Of a stretch of DNA of 64,000 bases, positions 29,507 through 39,180 are shown piece by piece. The DNA comes from Paracoccus aerius (lineage in GTDB: Bacteria > Pseudomonadota > Alphaproteobacteria > Rhodobacterales > Rhodobacteraceae): NCBI RefSeq assembly GCF_014656455.1, contig NZ_BNCL01000002.1, positions 186,001 to 250,000 on the forward strand. The letters are read 5' to 3'. Each line of letters begins with the position of its first letter. The first letter of the stretch is position 1. The position numbers and the translations under genes are program-made. The notes beneath the pieces are model-generated. The model searched no databases, was not told the DNA's origin, and saw only the letters and a list, made by a program, of their open reading frames with translations.

Positions 29507-30024
29507 CGACGGCACTTTTGCTGGCCGCAGGGTCATCCCGTCGGTTCGGCCCGACGTGCAAATTGCAGGCGATATACCAAGGAAAGCCGTTGGTCCGGCA
29601 TCCGGCCGACGCGATCCTGCAAGCAGGTCTGCAGGCTGTTGCCGTTGTCGCCGATCCCGCGGTCGAGGCCTTGTTGCCCGAGTTCCGCATCGTCCGCGTT
29701 TATCCGGGCCCGCAGTCCCAGTCCCTTCGCGCCGGCCTGGACATGATCACCGACGACCGCGCCTTGGTGGTGCTGGGCGACATGCCGCATCTGGACGCGG
29801 CTCTGCTGCTTCGCATCGCATCCGCACCTGCGCCGGCGGCGGCCTTTGACGGAAGCCGGATCATGCCCCCTGCCAGCATCCCGGTCACCATGTTCCCCGA
29901 GGTCACTGGCTTGACGGGGGATCGCGGTGCTGCGTCCTTGCTGCAGACCCGGGCCGACCTGTGCAAAATCCGGGTCTCGCGCCATGTCCTGAAGGACGTC
30001 GACCTGCTTTCGGATCTAGAGTGA
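29503..30024 (+). CDS. mocA: MobA/MocA-like molybdenum cofactor nucleotidyltransferase
   Basis: A 173-aa NTP-transferase with the N-terminal nucleotide loop LLLAAGSSRRFGPTCKLQAI and LVVLGDMPHLDAALL. The family adds CMP (MocA) or GMP (MobA) to molybdopterin; placement next to an XdhC-like protein and a xanthine-oxidase-family enzyme favours MocA. GTG 29503 overlaps the upstream stop by 4 bp. It is shorter than average (about 190 aa). Confidence 0.8.
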   Translation: MTTALLLAAGSSRRFGPTCKLQAIYQGKPLVRHPADAILQAGLQAVAVVADPAVEALLPEFRIVRVYPGPQSQSLRAGLDMITDDRALVVLGDMPHLDAALLLRIASAPAPAAAFDGSRIMPPASIPVTMFPEVTGLTGDRGAASLLQTRADLCKIRVSRHVLKDVDLLSDLE

Positions 30025-30042
30025 AATCCAAGCCACGCGGTG

Positions 30043-30933
30043 TTACCTTGCAAGAGCCTGGCAGAGCCTGTCCAACTGCTCGAGGTTCTTATAGGCAATG
30101 CTGATGGTCCCGCCACCGTTCTTGCCGTGGTCGATGGTGACCTGCATCTTGAGCTGTGCAGAAAGATCGGCCTCCAGGGCGCGTGTATCCGCGTCCTTAT
30201 TCCCGTCCCGCACCGCGCGATTTTTTTGGCTATCCTTGGTAGCCTCTGTCTTTCGGCGCACCAAATCTTCGGTTTCCCGCACGGAAAGTCCGCTGTCGAT
30301 CACGCGGCGCGCAAGGGCGGCAGGATTATCGGCAGTAATCAACGCGCGGGCATGGCCTGCCGTCAGCTTCCCGTCCTTCACATAATCCTGGATCTGGTCC
30401 GGCAGCGTCAAAAGGCGCAGCAGGTTGGCGATGTGGCTGCGACTCTTGTTCAGCGCCTCGGCCAGCTTTTCCTGGGTATGGCCGAAACGGTCCATCAGCT
30501 GCCGAAACGACGCGGCCTCTTCGATGGCGTTCAAATCGGCGCGCTGAATGTTTTCGATGATCGCGACTTCCAGAACCTCGGTATCGGAAAGGTCGCGGAT
30601 GATCACGGGCAACTCGTGCAGCTGCGCCATCTGGGCTGCACGCCAGCGTCTCTCACCGGCGACGATCTGGTAGAGGCTGTCGTCCTTGGGATGCTTGCGC
30701 ACGATCAGCGGCTGCAGGACGCCCCGCTGTCGCAGGGAATCTGCCAATTCCTGCAAGGCCGCAGGTTCAAAATGACGACGCGGCTGATCGGGATTTGCAG
30801 TGATCTGTTCGATGGGGACCATCAGGCGTTCACGGATCGGCTTGGCCTCGACAGCACCGTCAAGGTCCAGGTCGGCCATCAGGGCGGACAGCCCGCGTCC
30901 AAGGCCGCGCTTTGCAAGCTTGCTTTCGGACAT
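30043..30933 (-). CDS. parB: ParB, chromosome partitioning protein
   Basis: A 296-aa CTP-dependent DNA clamp that loads at parS. It has the N-terminal ParA-interacting region (KRGLGRGLSALMADLDLDGA), the ParB/Srx box (GERRWRAAQMA; ENIQRADLNAIEEAASFRQL) and a helix-turn-helix region (HTQEKLAEALNKSRSHIANL). It starts 1 bp inside the parA stop. Its binding sites, two perfect 16-bp parS elements, lie 1.3 and 3.2 kb upstream in the same operon. Confidence 0.97.
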   Translation of the reverse strand: MSESKLAKRGLGRGLSALMADLDLDGAVEAKPIRERLMVPIEQITANPDQPRRHFEPAALQELADSLRQRGVLQPLIVRKHPKDDSLYQIVAGERRWRAAQMAQLHELPVIIRDLSDTEVLEVAIIENIQRADLNAIEEAASFRQLMDRFGHTQEKLAEALNKSRSHIANLLRLLTLPDQIQDYVKDGKLTAGHARALITADNPAALARRVIDSGLSVRETEDLVRRKTEATKDSQKNRAVRDGNKDADTRALEADLSAQLKMQVTIDHGKNGGGTISIAYKNLEQLDRLCQALAR

Positions 30934-31715
30934 CAGGCTTCCTCCTTGACCAGTTTCAGACGCGCTGCGAACTCGGCAGCAAATTGGCGATAAGCGCCGC
31001 TTCCCTTTGATGTGGGATCGTAAAGCAGGACCGGTTGTGCAAAGGATGGTGCCTCGGACACCCGCACGTTTCGTGGGATGACGGTGGTGAAAACAAGCTC
31101 TCCAAGCGTCGCCCTTGCGTCAGCCTCGACCTGTTGGGACAGGTTGTTGCGGTAGTCGGACATGGTCAGCAGGACGCCATTGACCCGCAGGTCAGGGTTG
31201 CCACTTTGCCTGACCTTCTTGACGGTCGAGAGCAGCTGGGACAGGCCTTCCAGGGCATAGAATTCAGCCTGGAGAGGGACAAGAACCGCGTCAGCCGCGA
31301 CCATGGCATTGACCGTCAAAAGGCCCAGGGCTGGCGGACAGTCGATCAGGACGATGCTGTCATCCTCACCCTCCTCCAGCTTTCGCCGCAGAAGCCGCGT
31401 CCGCTCTTTCGTCTGAGCAAGGTCAACATCGGCCGACGACAGGTCCGAGGTAGCAGGGACAAGCGACAGGTTGGGAATGTCAGTCTCGACAAGGCATTCC
31501 TTGAGCGACTCGGGTCCGGCAAGCAGATCGTAGACGGTCTTGTGCCGCTGACCGACTTCCACGCCCAACCCCGTCGATGCATTCCCCTGCGGGTCCAGAT
31601 CGATCAGCAGCGTGTTATGGCCGTCAAGGGCAAGTGCCGCACCAAGATTGATGGCGGTCGTCGTCTTGCCAACACCGCCCTTCTGATTGGCGATGGCGAT
31701 GATGCTACGCGCCAT
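30933..31715 (-). CDS. parA: ParA, chromosome partitioning ATPase
   Basis: A 260-aa deviant Walker-type ATPase (NQKGGVGKTTTAINLGAALA) with switch regions LLIDLDPQGNASTGLG and IVLIDCPPALGLLTV. It segregates ParB-parS complexes during replication. It overlaps rsmG by 11 bp and parB by 1 bp. It sits close to the predicted oriC, as is usual in alphaproteobacteria. Confidence 0.97.
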   Translation of the reverse strand: MARSIIAIANQKGGVGKTTTAINLGAALALDGHNTLLIDLDPQGNASTGLGVEVGQRHKTVYDLLAGPESLKECLVETDIPNLSLVPATSDLSSADVDLAQTKERTRLLRRKLEEGEDDSIVLIDCPPALGLLTVNAMVAADAVLVPLQAEFYALEGLSQLLSTVKKVRQSGNPDLRVNGVLLTMSDYRNNLSQQVEADARATLGELVFTTVIPRNVRVSEAPSFAQPVLLYDPTSKGSGAYRQFAAEFAARLKLVKEEA

Positions 31716-32298
31716 GTCGGACCCCGCTTACTTCCAGGATTGCAGCACCCGGCTCAGTCCGGCTCGGATGGGCAACATAGTCAAAATTCCAAGTTTTCCT
31801 TGCCTCCTCGACTTCGGATGTCCACTGGCGTCCCTTCATCAGAAACGCCTTCCCCGAAGCCGTAAGGTGCAACTCCAGATATGACATAAGTCTGGGAAGT
31901 GGGGCAAGAGCACGCGTGCTGATGCAGTCTGCGTTCAACGCTGGCACGGCCTCGATCCGCTTGTTGAGGACCTTGACCCGGTTCAGACCCGTTTCCCGGA
32001 TCACTGTCCGCAGAAATGCTGCTTTGCGTTGGTCACTCTCGACCAGGATGAATGAGATGGGACGTTCGGCATGGGCAATGGCGACGACAATGCCTGGCAA
32101 TCCGCCGCCACTTCCAATGTCTGCCCAGGATCCTTGTTCAGGACCTTGTAATCTTGCAACCTGGAGGCAGTCTTCGATGTGCCGTTGTCCTATATTCGCG
32201 ACAGTCGACGGCGCAACGAGATTGATTTTCGGGTTCCACAACTTGATCAGGCTTTGGTAGATGCCGAGGCGTTCTGTTGTTTCACGTGAAACAATCAT
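31705..32298 (-). CDS. rsmG: RsmG, 16S rRNA 7-methylguanosine methyltransferase
   Basis: A 197-aa SAM-dependent methyltransferase (GidB) with the SAM motif [18 protein letters not shown], which modifies G527 of 16S rRNA. A parS site (32278-32293) overlaps its first codons, reading as VSRETT in the protein. The ATG at 32298 overlaps the mnmG stop by 4 bp. Confidence 0.96.
32278..32293. promoter_or_regulatory. parS centromere site 1
   Basis: TGTTTCACGTGAAACA, a perfect 16-bp palindrome and the canonical ParB loading site; the dyad extends to 18 bp (32277-32294). It is inside the 5' end of rsmG, which is a known arrangement in alphaproteobacteria. Confidence 0.95.
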
Positions 32299-34163
32299 GC
32301 TCGGCGTTTGCCTTTGGACCGCGTTGCCGCGAGAATCAGTGTCAGTGCTGCAGGGGTCATTCCTTCAATCCGTGCGGCCGCAGCCAGGGTTTCAGGCCGA
32401 AGCTGAACGAGCTTACTTCGCAACTCTGACGACAGGCCCACCAGCGAGCCATAGTCAAACTCGGACGGTAGGCTGACAACTTCATCGTTCCGAAGCGCTT
32501 CCGCGTCCCGAGCCTGACGGTCCGCATACTGATGATACAGCGCGTCATTTCGGATCTGCTGCAACGTCGTCGTGTCAATGTCCGACAACCCTGGATACAG
32601 ATCGACCAGTTGGTCTTGGTCGACCTCTGTTTGCGACAGCAACTGAAAGATTGACCTGCTTTGTCCATCCAGACGGACGGTAATGCCTGCCTTGGCTAAG
32701 GCAGTCGGCGTGAAAGTTGCAGCCTCGAGTTTTTGCCGCGCCGCCTCGTATTGTTCTTGCCTGTTGAGGAAGGCCACTCTCCTCTCCTCTCCAATACAAC
32801 CAAGCTCAAGGCCCGTCGGCGTCAGTCGCTGATCGGCGTTATCGGCACGAAGAGTCAGGCGAAATTCGGCGCGAGAGGTGAACATCCTGTATGGTTCTGT
32901 CACGCCCCTTGTTGTCAGATCATCAATCATCACGCCGATGTAGCTGTTCGTCCGGCTGAAGACGACAGGCTCCCGATCGGCAGCGGCCGATGCCGCGTTC
33001 AAACCAGCAACCAAGCCTTGCGCTGCAGCTTCTTCGTAACCTGTCGTCCCGTTGATCTGGCCCGCGAGATACAACCCCTCGACCGCCTTCAATCTTAGGG
33101 CGGAGGTGAGTGCACGGGGGTCTACATAGTCGTATTCAACAGCATAGCCTGGCTGAAGAATATCGGCAGCTTCCAGACCCAAGATAGACCGCACATATTC
33201 AACCTGAACATCCGCAGGCAGCGATGTGGAGATACCGTTGGGGTAAACTGTATGGCTAGTCAAACCTTCCGGCTCTAGGAAGATTTGGTGCGAGTCCTTG
33301 TCAGCGAAACGGACGATCTTGTCTTCAATTGATGGACAATATCGTGGCCCCTTCCCCGAAATATGCCCGCCATACATCGCGGACCGCGACAAGTTCCGGG
33401 CGATGATTTCATGGGTGGTCGAGTTCGTGTGGGTGATGCCGCACGAAATCTGGGGGGCCAACGGCAGCCGGCTCAGATACGAGAACATCACCGGTTCCTG
33501 ATCACCAGGCTGATGTTCAAGAACATCCCAGTTGATCGTTCGCCCATCTAGACGCGGCGGTGTGCCTGTCTTCAGTCGACCGAGCGGCAGCGCATACCTC
33601 AGCAGAGAATCCGCCAGCCGGTTTGAAGCCTGGTCCCCCCACCGACCCGCCGGACGGCTGACATCTCCGATATGGATCACGCCGTTCAAGAAGGTTCCGG
33701 TGGTCAGGACGACCGCCCGAGCGGGCAGAACCGTCCCATCGGCAAGCTCTATGCCGCAGACCCTGTTGTCATCCCCAACAAGGGAGGCAACTTCCGCAAA
33801 AAGCAGTTCAAGGTTTGGCTGGGTGGAAACAGCTTCAAAGGCAGCCGCACGATATAGATCGCGGTCCATTTGTGCGCGGGGACCTTGGACCGCCGCACCC
33901 TTCTTGCGGTTCAAGAGGCGGAACTGGATCCCGGCCTGGTCAGCAAGGCGGCCCATCAGCCCGTCCAAGGCGTCGACCTCTCGGACGAGATGGCCTTTTC
34001 CCAATCCGCCGATAGCGGGATTGCAAGACAGTGTCCCGATATCTTCCCGCCGCATCGTGACAAGCAGCGTTTTTGCCCCCATCCGAGCCGAGGCAGAGGC
34101 TGCTTCCAGACCCGCGTGACCGGCACCAATAACAATGACATCATGCTGTTTCACGTGAAACAC
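32295..34163 (-). CDS. mnmG: MnmG (GidA), tRNA uridine 5-carboxymethylaminomethyl modification enzyme
   Basis: A 622-aa FAD enzyme that, with MnmE, modifies U34 of tRNAs. It shows the FAD loop [20 protein letters not shown], followed by [20 protein letters not shown] and [13 protein letters not shown]. Translation starts at GTG 34163, directly after the mnmE stop, and the start overlaps a parS site (first residues MFHVKQ). Length is normal. Confidence 0.97.
34147..34162. promoter_or_regulatory. parS centromere site 2
   Basis: TGTTTCACGTGAAACA, a second perfect copy of parS, 1869 bp from the first. It overlaps the start of mnmG. Two sites within 5.5 kb of oriC match the expected parS clustering around alphaproteobacterial origins. 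Confidence 0.95.
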
Positions 34164-35429
34164 CTATTTCCCGATGCAGAAGGAAGTGAAGATTACGTCC
34201 AGATAATCCTCGGCGCCGATTCTGCCAAGCAAACGATCCAGCGACAGCGCCGCATGCCTGATCGACTCTGCAACCAGTTCGGCAGGAAGTTCAGCCACAC
34301 CGTCCAACGCGGCCCGAGCGTCAAGCAAAGCCTTCAGCTGTCGTTCATGACTGACCAAGGCTGCCCCTGCCGTTCGTTCAGAAAGAACGTCGAACATGGT
34401 ATCAAGGAGTCGGTCCAGGCCTTCGCCTGTCAAGGCGGACACTGACAGGTCCGACGCAGCATCACCAAGGTCAGCCTTGCTGGTCACCACCAGGTCACCA
34501 TCTACCCACAGTGCATTGTCCCGCTCCCCCATCGGCGACAGATGTATCCGCAGATCTGCCGCTTCTGCCCGGGAACGCGCACGGTCAATTCCTAGCCGTT
34601 CCACGGTGTCCTCAACATCCCGCAGACCGGCCGTATCCATCAGTGTGACTGCCAAGCCCTTTAGGTCCAGCCTGACTTCGATGATGTCCCGCGTGGTGCC
34701 GGCAACATCCGACACCAAAGCTACGTCACGCCTTGCAATCCTGTTGATCAGGCTCGATTTTCCGGCATTAGGCGGGCCGATGATGGCAACTTCGAAGCCG
34801 TTCCTTATCCTTTCGGCTGCAGAATAGCCGGCAATCTGATCGTCCAGTTCACGTCGAAACTGGGCCAGAAGCGTAAAGACTTCAGCCGGCACCTCATCGG
34901 GGACGTCCTCATCTGCGAAATCCACACTGCTTTCGACCAAAGCCCCCGCCCGCACCAGAAGCGTCCGCCACGTATCGGCTTTTCGGGTCAATTCGCCGCT
35001 GCTGACACGAACGGCCATGCGGCGTTGAGATTCGGTTTCCGCCACCAGAAGATCGCCAAGACCCTCGATTTCGGAAAGGTCCATCCTGCCATTGATGAAA
35101 GCCCGGCGCGTGAACTCTCCTGCTTCTGCCAGGCGTGCTCCGCCTTGCGACAGAACTTGTCCAAGACGTCGAACGATCACCGGCGCGCCATGCGATTGAA
35201 TTTCTGCGACTTCCTCGCCGGTGAAGCTGTGGCCGGCCTTGAACCAGATGACCAAGGCCTGATCCAGGGTTTCTCCATCCATCTGGATGTCGCGAAGATA
35301 GGCCTGCCGCGGACAAGGCAAGGGACCAACCAGTTTCTCGACAGCCGCGCGGGCGCCATCGCCGCTTAGGCGAATGACTGAAACGCCACCCCGCCCTGGC
35401 GGAGTGGCTTCTGCGTAGATCAGATCCAT
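34164..35429 (-). CDS. mnmE: MnmE (TrmE), tRNA modification GTPase
   Basis: A 421-aa GTPase with an N-terminal tetrahydrofolate-binding domain (MDLIYAEATPPGRGGVSVIR), a helical domain and a G domain (GPPNAGKSSLINRIARRDVA; SDVAGTTRDIIEV; DTAGLRD). It ends in the conserved FCIGK, whose Cys is essential in the family. Works with MnmG on tRNA wobble uridine. The stop abuts the mnmG GTG start. Confidence 0.97.
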   Translation of the reverse strand: MDLIYAEATPPGRGGVSVIRLSGDGARAAVEKLVGPLPCPRQAYLRDIQMDGETLDQALVIWFKAGHSFTGEEVAEIQSHGAPVIVRRLGQVLSQGGARLAEAGEFTRRAFINGRMDLSEIEGLGDLLVAETESQRRMAVRVSSGELTRKADTWRTLLVRAGALVESSVDFADEDVPDEVPAEVFTLLAQFRRELDDQIAGYSAAERIRNGFEVAIIGPPNAGKSSLINRIARRDVALVSDVAGTTRDIIEVRLDLKGLAVTLMDTAGLRDVEDTVERLGIDRARSRAEAADLRIHLSPMGERDNALWVDGDLVVTSKADLGDAASDLSVSALTGEGLDRLLDTMFDVLSERTAGAALVSHERQLKALLDARAALDGVAELPAELVAESIRHAALSLDRLLGRIGAEDYLDVIFTSFCIGK

Positions 35430-35439
35430 GGTTGCCCCG

Positions 35440-36711
35440 TCAGGCGTTCATCGAGTCGAAGAATTCCGAGTTTGACTTGGTCTGCTTCAGTTTCGAGATC
35501 AGGAACTCGATCGCATCGGTCGTGCCCATCGGGTTCAGGATCCGCCGCAGCAGATACGTCTTCTGCAAGTCCTTGGAGTCGACTAGCAATTCTTCCTTCC
35601 GGGTGCCGGACTTCAGGATATCCATGGCCGGGAAGACCCGCTTGTCGGCGACCTTGCGGTCCAGCACGATCTCGCTGTTGCCAGTGCCCTTGAACTCTTC
35701 GAAGATCACCTCGTCCATCCGCGAGCCGGTATCGATCAGCGCAGTCGCAATGATGGTCAGCGAGCCGCCTTCTTCGATGTTCCGCGCCGCGCCGAAGAAC
35801 CGCTTCGGCCGCTGCAGCGCATTCGCATCGACGCCACCGGTCAGAACCTTGCCAGAACTCGGCACGACGGTGTTGAACGCCCTACCAAGTCTTGTGATAG
35901 AATCCAGTAGAATCACAACATCTCGTTTATGTTCAACCAGGCGCTTGGCCTTCTCGATCACCATCTCGGACACGGCGACATGCCGGCTGGCCGGTTCGTC
36001 GAAGGTCGACGACACGACCTCGCCCTTGACCGAACGCTGCATATCGGTCACCTCCTCGGGGCGTTCGTCGATCAGCAGCACGATCAGGTAACATTCCGGA
36101 TGGTTGCGCTCGATCGAATGGGCGATGTTCTGCAACAGCACCGTCTTGCCGGTCCGCGGGGGCGCCACGATCAGCGACCGCTGCCCCTTGCCGATCGGCG
36201 CAACCAGGTCGATGATCCGGGCCGAGCGATCCTTCAGTGTCGGATCCTCGATCTCCATCTTCAGCCGCTCATTGGGATAAAGCGGCGTCAGGTTGTCGAA
36301 GGCCACCTTGTGGCGGGCCTTCTCGGGATCCTCGAAATTGATGCGCTCGACCTTGGTGAGGGCGAAGTAACGCTCGTTCTCGCCAGGGGCGCGGATCACG
36401 CCTTCGACCGTGTCGCCGGTGCGCAGGCTGTGCTGGCGGATCATGTCGGGGCTGACATAGATGTCGTCGGGACCGGGCAGATAGTTCGCGGCCGTCGACC
36501 GCAGGAAGCCGAAGCCATCCTGGACCACCTCGAGCACTCCATCGCCGCCGATGTCGAACCCTTCCTCGGCATGTTCCTTGAGGATCGAGAACATCATCTC
36601 GCCCTTGCGCATGGTCGAGGCGTTCTCGATCTCCCACTCTTCGGCCAAGGAGAGAAGTTCGGCCGGGCTCTTGGCCTTGAGTTCGGACAGGTTCAAGCGT
36701 TCTTCGGACAT
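35440..36711 (-). CDS. rho: Rho transcription termination factor
   Basis: A 423-aa hexameric RNA helicase. It shows the OB-fold RNA-binding domain ([20 protein letters not shown]), the P-loop [18 protein letters not shown] and the Walker B region [17 protein letters not shown]. Length is typical. It is downstream of hemJ with a 127-bp gap that could hold its leader. Confidence 0.98.
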
Positions 36712-36838
36712 GATGGCACCGCAATCCCGCGCGGCAGATCCGCACGGCTGGTCAGAATGTGGATCGGGAATCCCCAGGCCGGACGGCCGGGCTTGCGCCT
36801 GACATAGACAGGGACGCCGTCAGAGTCAATCTGGACCT

Positions 36839-37282
36839 TCAGAACTTGACGATGACCGACAGGACGATGCCGATCATCAAAAGCGTCGGCACCTCGTTCA
36901 TGATGCGATAGCGGCGTCCCGGAAGCCCCTGGGCGGCCTTCAGGGAACGGCGCTGACCCGCACACCACATGTGAAACCAGGTCATCGCCAGGACGCAGCC
37001 CGCCTTGGTCCAGGGCCAGACCATCGACCAGTCGACGATGCCCGGCGTCATCACCAGGAACAGGCCGCTGATCCAGGTCGCGATCATCGCCGGATTCATG
37101 ATCAGGCGAAGAAGCTTTTCCTCCATGATGACAAAGCTGCCGGCCGGCTCGGGCGCAGCGCCGCGTTCGGCATGATAGACGAACAGCCTTGGCAGGTAGA
37201 ACAGCCCTGCCATCCAGGAAATCACGGCCATGACGTGAAATGCCTTGGCATAGGGATAAAGGGTCGAAAGGCCGTCCAGCAT
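36839..37282 (-). CDS. hemJ: HemJ, protoporphyrinogen oxidase
   Basis: A 147-aa integral membrane protein (four hydrophobic segments) that oxidises protoporphyrinogen IX in haem synthesis. The N-terminal KAFHVMAVISWMAGLFYLPR carries the conserved His; LFVYHAERG follows, and the C-terminal YRIMNEVPTLLMIGIVLSVI is typical. It lies directly on the left of oriC and reads away from it, upstream of rho. Confidence 0.95.
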   Translation of the reverse strand: MLDGLSTLYPYAKAFHVMAVISWMAGLFYLPRLFVYHAERGAAPEPAGSFVIMEEKLLRLIMNPAMIATWISGLFLVMTPGIVDWSMVWPWTKAGCVLAMTWFHMWCAGQRRSLKAAQGLPGRRYRIMNEVPTLLMIGIVLSVIVKF

Positions 37283-37458
37283 CGCCGTGCTTCTTCTTAA
37301 ATATAAGGAAAAGATAAAGGATGATGTTGATGTAGGCCCTGTGGAGAAAAGGATAAAGGGAAAATCCCAAGCCTTTTCCCCGGAAGCGACGCTTGTGGAT
37401 ATATTCTGTAAAGAGCAGGGTCTATGAATAAAAACGTAAAAAATACAGCGACTTGATA

Positions 37459-37467
37459 TGTGGATAA
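37459..37467 (-). promoter_or_regulatory. DnaA box (perfect) in oriC
   Basis: TGTGGATAA, reverse of TTATCCACA, the strict DnaA consensus. Clustered with several weaker boxes. Confidence 0.85.
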
Positions 37468-37641
37468 ATCTGTGGAGACCGGTGCCGACGACGCTTTCTC
37501 CACAGATGCACGATCCCGACCCCGGAAGTTATCCACCTGTGTGTGTCCCGCAGCCGTTCAAGGGATGTTCCGGGCCGGAATCCGGGGCGTGACGCAAATC
37601 TTCCACCCACCCCCATGATTCGACCCGATTCCCCCCGGATC

Positions 37642-37650
37642 TTATCCACA
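37642..37650 (+). promoter_or_regulatory. DnaA box (perfect) in oriC
   Basis: TTATCCACA, strict consensus, about 95 bp before aroE. Confidence 0.85.
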
Positions 37651-37744
37651 AACAGGACGGCCACACCTGGCAGGGCTTTGCAAAACGACGCTTTTTTTCG
37701 TCCCCTCATGGGCTTAGGCTGATGGCAAGCCAAGGGATGCCACC

Positions 37745-38596
37745 ATGATCGACGACCAGCCCAGCCGTCCTGCCCATGTTCCGCTTGCCGGAGTGATCGG
37801 GATGCCCGTCGCGCATTCCCGGTCTCCGCGGCTGCACGGCCACTGGTTGCGGCGCTATGGCATCGAAGGTCATTACATTCCCATGCCTGTCATGCCCGAG
37901 CATCTGGCCGAGGCATTGCGCGCCCTGCCCCGCCTGGGCTTTGTCGGCATCAACGTGACGCTCCCGCACAAGGAGGCCGTTCTGACGCTGGCCGATGCCG
38001 TTACCGATCGCGCGGCGCTGATTGGGGCTGCGAACACGCTGATCTTCCGCCCCGATGGAAAGATCCATGCCGACAATACCGACGGCTACGGCTTTATCGC
38101 CAATCTGCGCCAGAACGCACCGGGCTGGCAGCCCGAGGCAGGACCGGCGGCGATAATCGGTGCGGGCGGGGCCGCGCGGGCGGTGGTCGCATCGCTTCTG
38201 GACAGCGGCGTCAAGGAATTGCGGATCACAAACCGCACCCGCATCCGGTCCGAACAGATCAAGGCGGAATTCGGCGCACGGCTGGTCGTTTATGACTGGG
38301 CGCAGGCTGGCAACATGCTGGAAGGGGCCACCACGGTCGTGAATGCGACCTCGCTGGGTATGGAGGGCAAGCAGCCCCTGCGCCTGCCGCTGGATGCGCT
38401 GTCGCCCGACGCACTTGTGACCGATCTGGTCTACACGCCCCTCATGACGCCCTTCCTGTTGGACGCGCAGGCCCGCGGCTGCCGGGTGGTGGATGGGCTG
38501 GGGATGCTGCTGCACCAGGCCGCGCCGGGTTTCGAACGCTGGTTCGGGCACCGTCCCGAAGTCGACGACGAGACCCGCAGGGTCGTTCTGGAATGA
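37745..38596 (+). CDS. aroE: Shikimate dehydrogenase
   Basis: A 283-aa NADPH-linked enzyme of aromatic amino-acid synthesis. The shikimate-binding residues are visible: SRSPRLHGHWL, NVTLPHKE (catalytic Lys) and NTDGYGF (Asp). NADP motif IIGAGGAARAVVAS. It is the first gene to the right of oriC; the stop overlaps coaE by 4 bp. Confidence 0.97.
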   Translation: MIDDQPSRPAHVPLAGVIGMPVAHSRSPRLHGHWLRRYGIEGHYIPMPVMPEHLAEALRALPRLGFVGINVTLPHKEAVLTLADAVTDRAALIGAANTLIFRPDGKIHADNTDGYGFIANLRQNAPGWQPEAGPAAIIGAGGAARAVVASLLDSGVKELRITNRTRIRSEQIKAEFGARLVVYDWAQAGNMLEGATTVVNATSLGMEGKQPLRLPLDALSPDALVTDLVYTPLMTPFLLDAQARGCRVVDGLGMLLHQAAPGFERWFGHRPEVDDETRRVVLE

Positions 38597-39180
38597 CCTT
38601 CCTGCTGGGCCTGACCGGCAGCATCGGCATGGGCAAGTCCACCACCGCGCAAATCTTCCGCGACCTGGGCCATCCTGTCTGGGATGCCGACCAGGCCGTT
38701 CATCGTCTTTACACGCCGGGCGGCGCGGGTGTCGGGCCGGTGGCCGCCGCCTTTCCCGGCGCGATGCGAGAGGGAGGTATCGACCGCGGGCCGCTCAAGG
38801 CCCTGATCGCCGATGATCCGGGTGCGCTGGACCGGCTGTCGGCCATCGTCCATCCCCTTGTCGCGGCCGATCGAGAGGACTTCATCGCCCGTCACCCCGA
38901 TGCCGTGCTGGTGGTCCTGGATATTCCGTTGCTTTACGAAAACGGCTATGAGGCCTGGATGGATGGCGTGGCCGTCGTCTCGACCGATGCGGCGATCCAG
39001 CGGCAGCGGGTCATGGCGCGGCCGGGCATGACCCAGGATCTGCTGGCGCTGATCCTGTCGCGGCAGATGCCCGATGCGGAAAAGCGGGCGCGTGCCGACT
39101 GGATCATCCCGACCGACAGTCCCGGCGCCGCGCGCCAGGCCGTGGAAGATATCGTGAAGGAGATTGCCGCCCGTGCGTGA
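38593..39180 (+). CDS. coaE: Dephospho-CoA kinase
   Basis: A 195-aa P-loop kinase (GLTGSIGMGKSTTAQIFRDL) that phosphorylates dephospho-CoA in the last step of CoA synthesis. Other features: DADQAVHRLYTPGG, VLDIPLLYENGYE and RQMPDAEKRARADWII. The aroE-coaE-dnaQ order is standard near the origin in alphaproteobacteria. Confidence 0.97.
   Translation: MTFLLGLTGSIGMGKSTTAQIFRDLGHPVWDADQAVHRLYTPGGAGVGPVAAAFPGAMREGGIDRGPLKALIADDPGALDRLSAIVHPLVAADREDFIARHPDAVLVVLDIPLLYENGYEAWMDGVAVVSTDAAIQRQRVMARPGMTQDLLALILSRQMPDAEKRARADWIIPTDSPGAARQAVEDIVKEIAARA

Follow-up and report, generated by a model that had tools for sequence, protein, structure and literature searches.

Replication origins have been predicted or located in several members of the Rhodobacteraceae. 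Ori-Finder was used to predict oriC in 101 strains of the family on the basis of DnaA boxes, the GC-disparity minimum, and proximity to parAB (PMC6699656). In Paracoccus and Cereibacter, every chromosome examined by marker frequency showed a bidirectional "roof" profile (PMC13342612), and the origin of chromosome 1 of Rhodobacter sphaeroides was located by cumulative GC skew together with replication and partition loci (PMC6315104). For the DNA that opens first, two reports describe a basal unwinding system (BUS) in which 3'-GAT-5' is the commonest triplet beside the DnaA box (PMC8287927, PMC10721633).

We analyzed a 64,000-nucleotide stretch of Paracoccus aerius DNA, hereafter the window, which corresponds to positions 186001 to 250000 of contig C2 in a draft assembly of 4.22 Mb and 107 contigs. 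A sequence-only reading of this DNA had placed oriC in the gap between hemJ and aroE. Our results support that placement: the gap has a cluster of DnaA boxes, low duplex stability, parS and parAB nearby, a change in KOPS polarity, and conservation across the family, and judging from these features, it is very probably the chromosomal oriC of this Paracoccus species. The locus comes from the same family as the Ori-Finder predictions; while those, in the parts of the report available to us, carry no gene context or internal anatomy, the element described here is tied to hemJ and to KOPS polarity (PMC6699656). As in R. sphaeroides chromosome 1, ParB/parS mark the origin region (PMC6315104). Predicted Rhodobacteraceae origins (PMC6699656) and measured Paracoccus profiles (PMC13342612) are thus already known; the hemJ/aroE flanks and the triplet element analyzed below are absent from the accessible parts of both reports. 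More broadly, in the portions of the main texts that we consulted, we saw no paper that places a Rhodobacteraceae origin between hemJ and aroE or maf. The likely oriC of this genome is narrowed to a few hundred bases.

Anatomy of the hemJ-aroE gap

The features of the locus are collected in Table 1. As had been claimed, the genes switch strand at the gap: mnmG, mnmE, rho, and hemJ lie on the minus strand on one side, and aroE, coaE, and an RNase_T-family exonuclease gene lie on the plus strand on the other. The closest named relatives of the window's HemJ are from Paracoccus. Within window positions 30001 to 38000, the GC content is 0.57 to 0.60 over the stretch from parA to hemJ and the gap, versus 0.65 window-wide.

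Table 1. Coordinates of the predicted origin and neighboring features (window positions)
Feature	Position	Strand	Remarks
hemJ-aroE intergenic region, predicted oriC	37283..37744	.	462 bases; core about 37298-37650
parB	30043..30933	-	
parA	30933..31715	-	
parS	32278..32293	+	perfect
parS	34147..34162	+	perfect
rho	35440..36711	-	
hemJ	36839..37282	-	UPF0093
A/purine-rich, easily melted stretch	37298..37320	+	DUE-like; 83% purine, no C
Five triplets ATG-ATG-TTG-ATG-TAG	37321..37335	+	G every third base; DnaA-trio-like
G/C spacer	37336..37339	+	4 bases
DnaA box TTCTCCACA	37340..37348	-	1 mismatch
Weak second co-oriented box	37348..37356	-	GGAT core; our own reading
DnaA box ATATCCACA	37394..37402	-	1 mismatch
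Second easily melted stretch	37399..37458	.	window's least stable 60-base stretch
DnaA box	37423	-	2 mismatches
IHF-like site (putative)	37446..37458	-	1 mismatch; between second and third strong boxes
DnaA box TTATCCACA	37459..37467	-	perfect
DnaA box GTCTCCACA	37471..37479	-	2 mismatches; bases largely retained in relatives
DnaA box TTCTCCACA	37496..37504	+	1 mismatch
DnaA box TTATCCACC	37529..37537	+	1 mismatch
DnaA box TTATCCACA	37642..37650	+	perfect
aroE	37745..38596	+	
coaE	38593..39180	+	

Of the eight DnaA boxes in the window that deviate from the consensus by no more than one base, six lie in the gap, and both perfect boxes are among them. Two perfect and five near-perfect boxes had been reported; the perfect pair was recovered, while the near-perfect boxes number four with one mismatch, or five if the two-mismatch box at 37471 is counted. 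Those at 37340, 37394, 37459, and 37471 point one way, and those at 37496, 37529, and 37642 point the opposite way. After the box at 37529, Paracoccus relatives carry an inverted TGTGGA, which is not intact in the window. In 100 dinucleotide shuffles of the window, the mean was 3.95 boxes with at most one mismatch, and the observed eight were equaled or exceeded in six; the total is therefore unremarkable. What is unusual is the clustering, with six of eight boxes inside 462 bases. The 408-kb contig contains 26 such boxes, with a maximum of one per 500-base span outside the gap. Perfect boxes occur 14 times in the draft (18 times for a reversed control pattern). The two in the gap are 183 bases apart, whereas 37 kb separates the next closest pair that shares a contig. 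By our own arithmetic, the expected number of perfect pairs within 200 bases is about 0.009. The DnaA-box cluster looked for in an oriC is thus found at the gap.

Easily melted DNA, likewise looked for in an oriC, adjoins these boxes. By calculated stacking energy, at lengths of 40, 60, and 100 bases alike, the two stretches of lowest stability in the 64-kb window start between 37266 and 37399, the least stable 40-base stretch beginning at 37294. AT-rich stretches had been described as flanking the boxes; they are present, but since the gap is rich in GC in its right part (AT fraction of 0.40 from 37483 on), their position is better given as the hemJ side. Partition elements are also close by, as had been stated for a 7-kb radius: two perfect parS sites and the genes for ParA and ParB lie 3.1 to 7.2 kb from the gap.

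Two observations suggest that an IHF-like site lies between strong boxes two and three. The CA at plus-strand positions 37446-37447 is retained in relatives (64 and 66 of 66 sequences), and exact matches to WATCAN5WTR occur in 24/80 relatives versus 7.6 in shuffles, most often in one 20-base bin. When WATCAAN4TTR with at most one mismatch was searched instead, the counts were 39/80 relatives versus 24.1 in shuffles. The window's own plus-strand IHF site is degenerate.

Conservation beside hemJ

We surveyed 80 named loci (L039 to L118; the unnamed loci L009 to L038, many of them probably from the same strains, were left out of the counts). At least two boxes with no more than one mismatch lie beside hemJ in 78 of them, many at recurring offsets; the exceptions are L092, which has only 156 bases upstream, and L118, which has one box. 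Beyond the boxes, aroE is found in 61 loci, 14 of which, none labelled Paracoccus, have a gap of 970 to 1015 bases. A Maf gene between the origin element and aroE was confirmed in both loci tested (L102:4997-5593 and L114:5012-5608); Maf is absent from the corresponding place in the window, and the single Maf match of the P. aerius genome is on a different contig from the gap. An adjacent aroE was not found in the remaining 19 loci, L092 among them. In Paracoccus denitrificans, a gene for a Rieske ring-hydroxylating oxygenase lies directly beyond the gap on the aroE side (L066:4055-5293; a 150-amino-acid reading frame that overlaps the boxes was set aside when naming the nearest long frame), and in Paracoccus mutanolyticus, a similar gene lies about 1 kb further off (L089:3184-4422). 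In both species, the origin element remains beside hemJ. Since aroE is not always found next to the boxes and can be separated from them by Maf, the right flank is variable, while the left, hemJ flank is stable.

HemJ itself has a match in 60 of the 61 genomes of the genus. For the wider family, we used a sequence-only model (R1) of the hemJ-side 118 bases, which at a threshold of E<=0.01 has matches in 159 of 198 genomes. Among the matches listed for both (150 of the 159 R1 genomes and 149 of the 154 hemJ genomes, the latter at E<=1e-20), the element abuts hemJ on the opposite strand in 129/130 genomes; the one exception has them on separate contigs. At least 20 family genomes have an R1 match and no hemJ match at E<=1e-20, which may reflect a diverged or unassembled hemJ. 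Because 20 of the listed genomes show this pattern, the element is unlikely to be a mere leader of hemJ. The hemJ-linked element offers a simple origin marker for many Rhodobacteraceae genomes.

KOPS polarity, GC skew, and competing readings

KOPS (GGGNAGGG) run from ori to dif in a panel of chromosomes that includes Paracoccus (PMC13342612). The polarity found here is the same; the panel consists of other species. On the P. aerius contig, there are 11 forward and 59 reverse KOPS to the left of the gap and 43 forward and 19 reverse to its right. The best-fitting switch falls at 225.5 to 230.3 kb of the contig, the gap being at 223.3 kb; the interval that contains the gap, 219.3 to 223.9 kb, has a fit 2.1 log units below the best. 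Within 100 kb on either side, the switch at the gap is significant in P. aerius (P = 1.3e-4) and in two relatives, G039 (P = 1.3e-4) and G013 (P = 0.031). The other two of the four relatives show no significant switch there: G011 has 2 forward and 15 reverse KOPS on one side and 3 and 8 on the other (P = 0.35), and G007 has 3 and 9 versus 6 and 5 (P = 0.21). G011 therefore gives the origin reading no support, and G007 is weak. As a control, the KOPS pattern reversed gave no significant switch at ten places (smallest P, 0.076).

The genome of G039 is a single contig, of which we sampled 20 kb per 64 kb outside 0 to 200 kb and 2757 to 2957 kb. With the gap and 1.544 Mb, a terminus set by us, as dividing points, its arms have forward-to-reverse KOPS counts of 105:25 and 39:166. 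The fitted terminus, 1.518 to 1.570 Mb, includes the half-way point of 1.557 Mb (our own arithmetic), and the fitted origin, 81 to 111 kb, begins about 2 kb beyond the gap.

GC skew was dropped as an origin locator, being too weak to pinpoint the gap. The sequence-only reading had named a skew minimum elsewhere as evidence against this origin, and the outcome is mixed. In G039, when the 200 kb on either side of the record start are considered, the cumulative minimum falls 0.7 kb from the gap; with the whole chromosome sampled and interpolated, the distance is about 159 kb. On the P. aerius contig, the minimum is located at 78 kb, which puts 145 kb between it and the gap, or 20 kb when only the surrounding 100 kb on either side are considered. 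Taken strictly, a minimum elsewhere counts against the gap, though we judge the test uninformative here because the skew is close to zero. In G039 divided into 20-kb stretches, inspection by eye showed no clear signal in either third-codon-position skew or coding-strand bias.

The competing site is dnaA, which, as had been noted, does not adjoin the gap, and neither does hemE: dnaA, at contig position 160997, is separated from it by 62 kb, and hemE is on another contig (C1). Since dnaA shares the contig of the gap, KOPS can tell the two origin candidates apart. If the origin were at dnaA and the hemJ gap merely a DnaA-binding site, P. aerius would resemble the many bacteria in which oriC adjoins dnaA, and dnaA does fall within the first kilobase of contig C1 in 6 of 11 relatives searched. 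Yet no box with at most one mismatch lies around dnaA (contig positions 158 to 164 kb), and KOPS show no significant switch there in any of five genomes (P = 0.20 in P. aerius, 1 in G039, 1 in G013, 0.12 in G007, and 1 in G011), three of which carry dnaA far from hemJ (334 kb in G007, 628 kb in G013, and 871 kb in G011). We give an origin at dnaA almost no credence, and with such distances, the gene is a poor guide to the origin even though several records of the genus start with it. DnaA is also a transcription factor, and the gap sits between two divergent genes, as would suit a DnaA-titrating or regulatory region with a DnaA-controlled divergent promoter for hemJ and aroE. This reading is very unlikely: boxes remain where aroE is not the neighbor (the 19 loci above, including L092 with its short upstream sequence), the R1 element occurs in genomes in which no hemJ was matched (or in which hemJ is diverged or unassembled), and KOPS polarity and parS would be left unexplained.

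A Caulobacter-type Cori, at which CtrA competes with DnaA, is likewise very unlikely. Caulobacter belongs to the same class, and its origin lies beside hemE (PMC1914354). Like Cori, the gap is intergenic and has an AT-rich stretch, DnaA boxes, and an IHF-like site, and the loose form TTWW-N7-TTWW has four exact, mutually overlapping matches in its AT-rich stretches. Unlike Cori (PMC1914354), the gap has neither hemE beside it nor an enrichment of CtrA sites, and it is flanked by hemJ on one side and aroE (or maf) on the other. TTAA-N7-TTAA is matched in the gap only with two mismatches, and sites with at most one mismatch are rarer in relatives (12/80) than in shuffles (19.5).

The hemJ-aroE gap stays the preferred origin, but the boxes around hemJ in some relatives count against it. 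In G007 and G013, the 100 kb on either side of hemJ contain no perfect box, and no 500-base span there exceeds two boxes with at most one mismatch. G011 carries a pair of perfect boxes adjacent to hemJ and another such pair about 90 kb from its hemJ gap (contig C1, 111001-311000; L238 to L247), and a rearrangement is possible in this genome. G011 also has 25 weak Bac_DnaA-family matches besides dnaA; such matches are often IstB-like transposon proteins.

A phased triplet element beside the first box

The strongest conserved block in an alignment of 80 sequences spans about 37298 to 37354. This alignment comprised the window and 79 relatives, L092 having been dropped as too short, and was first divided into 66 Paracoccus and 14 other sequences. 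For the counts that follow (alignment A1), L092 was again left out, and L093, a metagenome-assembled genome labelled Alphaproteobacteria, was moved to the others, giving 65 Paracoccus and 15 non-Paracoccus or unclassified sequences. The conserved order is an A/purine-rich strand, ATG-WTG-TTG-NNG-TAG, G(G/C)CC, a DnaA box, and a GGAT core eight bases on. All five phased G are present in 54/65 Paracoccus sequences and at least four in 64/65; among the other 15, the corresponding numbers are 2 and 12. TGTGG occurs in register at the first box in 50/65 Paracoccus versus 2/15 other sequences, and GGA of the second box in 55/65 and 11/15, respectively. G37351 and A37353 are invariant in all 80 sequences.

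This arrangement resembles the BUS in its order of an easily melted strand, triplets, a short G/C spacer, and co-oriented boxes (PMC8287927, PMC10721633), and the triplet pattern may be a variant of this known DNA-opening signal. As in the BUS, the box-proximal triplet reads 3'-GAT-5' in the window, and it does so in 49/65 Paracoccus sequences. Published trios have A in the middle (PMC8287927, PMC10721633), whereas here triplets two to five mostly have T (31, 52, 65, and 58 of 65 Paracoccus sequences) and in the conserved G-phase register only the box-proximal triplet frequently has A there (52/65). The boxes differ as well: the better-matching one sits 4 bases and the weaker one 12 bases away from the triplets, while published spacers, counted from the better box, are commonest at 10 to 13 bases, and the two boxes start 8 bases apart, while the published search implies 9 to 12 (PMC8287927). 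Six further DnaA proteins were assayed in that work, none of them alphaproteobacterial according to the text available to us (PMC8287927).

The published rule of 3'-NAN-5' triplets is a weak test here, because two of the window's seven boxes reach at least three such triplets within 16 bases (37340, spacer 14; 37459, spacer 12). At the first box, 37 of the 80 sequences satisfy it, versus a shuffled mean of 19.35 and a maximum of 27, in a register that differs from the G phase. The exact consensus pattern of the triplet element was found in only 3 of 198 family genomes, P. aerius included; hence, the strict form is not general, and model R1 picks up a looser one. Tentatively, and with more doubt than confidence, we propose that Paracoccus, and in looser form other Rhodobacteraceae, might use variant trios, 3'-GAT-GNN-GTT-GTW-GTA-5', that are phased by G and have mostly T for A, with a 4-base spacer and two overlapping boxes, and that DnaA might read the single strand via G rather than A. 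If the element works as a DnaA-trio variant, it would probe the reach of the proposed broadly conserved unwinding code; it is the part of the origin most worth testing.

By analogy with known origins, we infer how replication would start at the hemJ-aroE gap. DnaA would bind the six to eight boxes, and an IHF-like site would bend the DNA between boxes two and three. From the hemJ-side boxes, it would spread onto the adjoining triplet and A-rich strand and melt it, and the helicase would load there. Two forks would then depart, one toward hemJ and one toward aroE, and ParB bound to the parS sites 3 to 5 kb away would segregate the new origins.

Near the last box, the window has two GANTC sites (37617-37631). 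GANTC is associated with CcrM methylation. The motif is present in 75/80 relatives, versus 59 in shuffles, and is commonest near the right-hand end.
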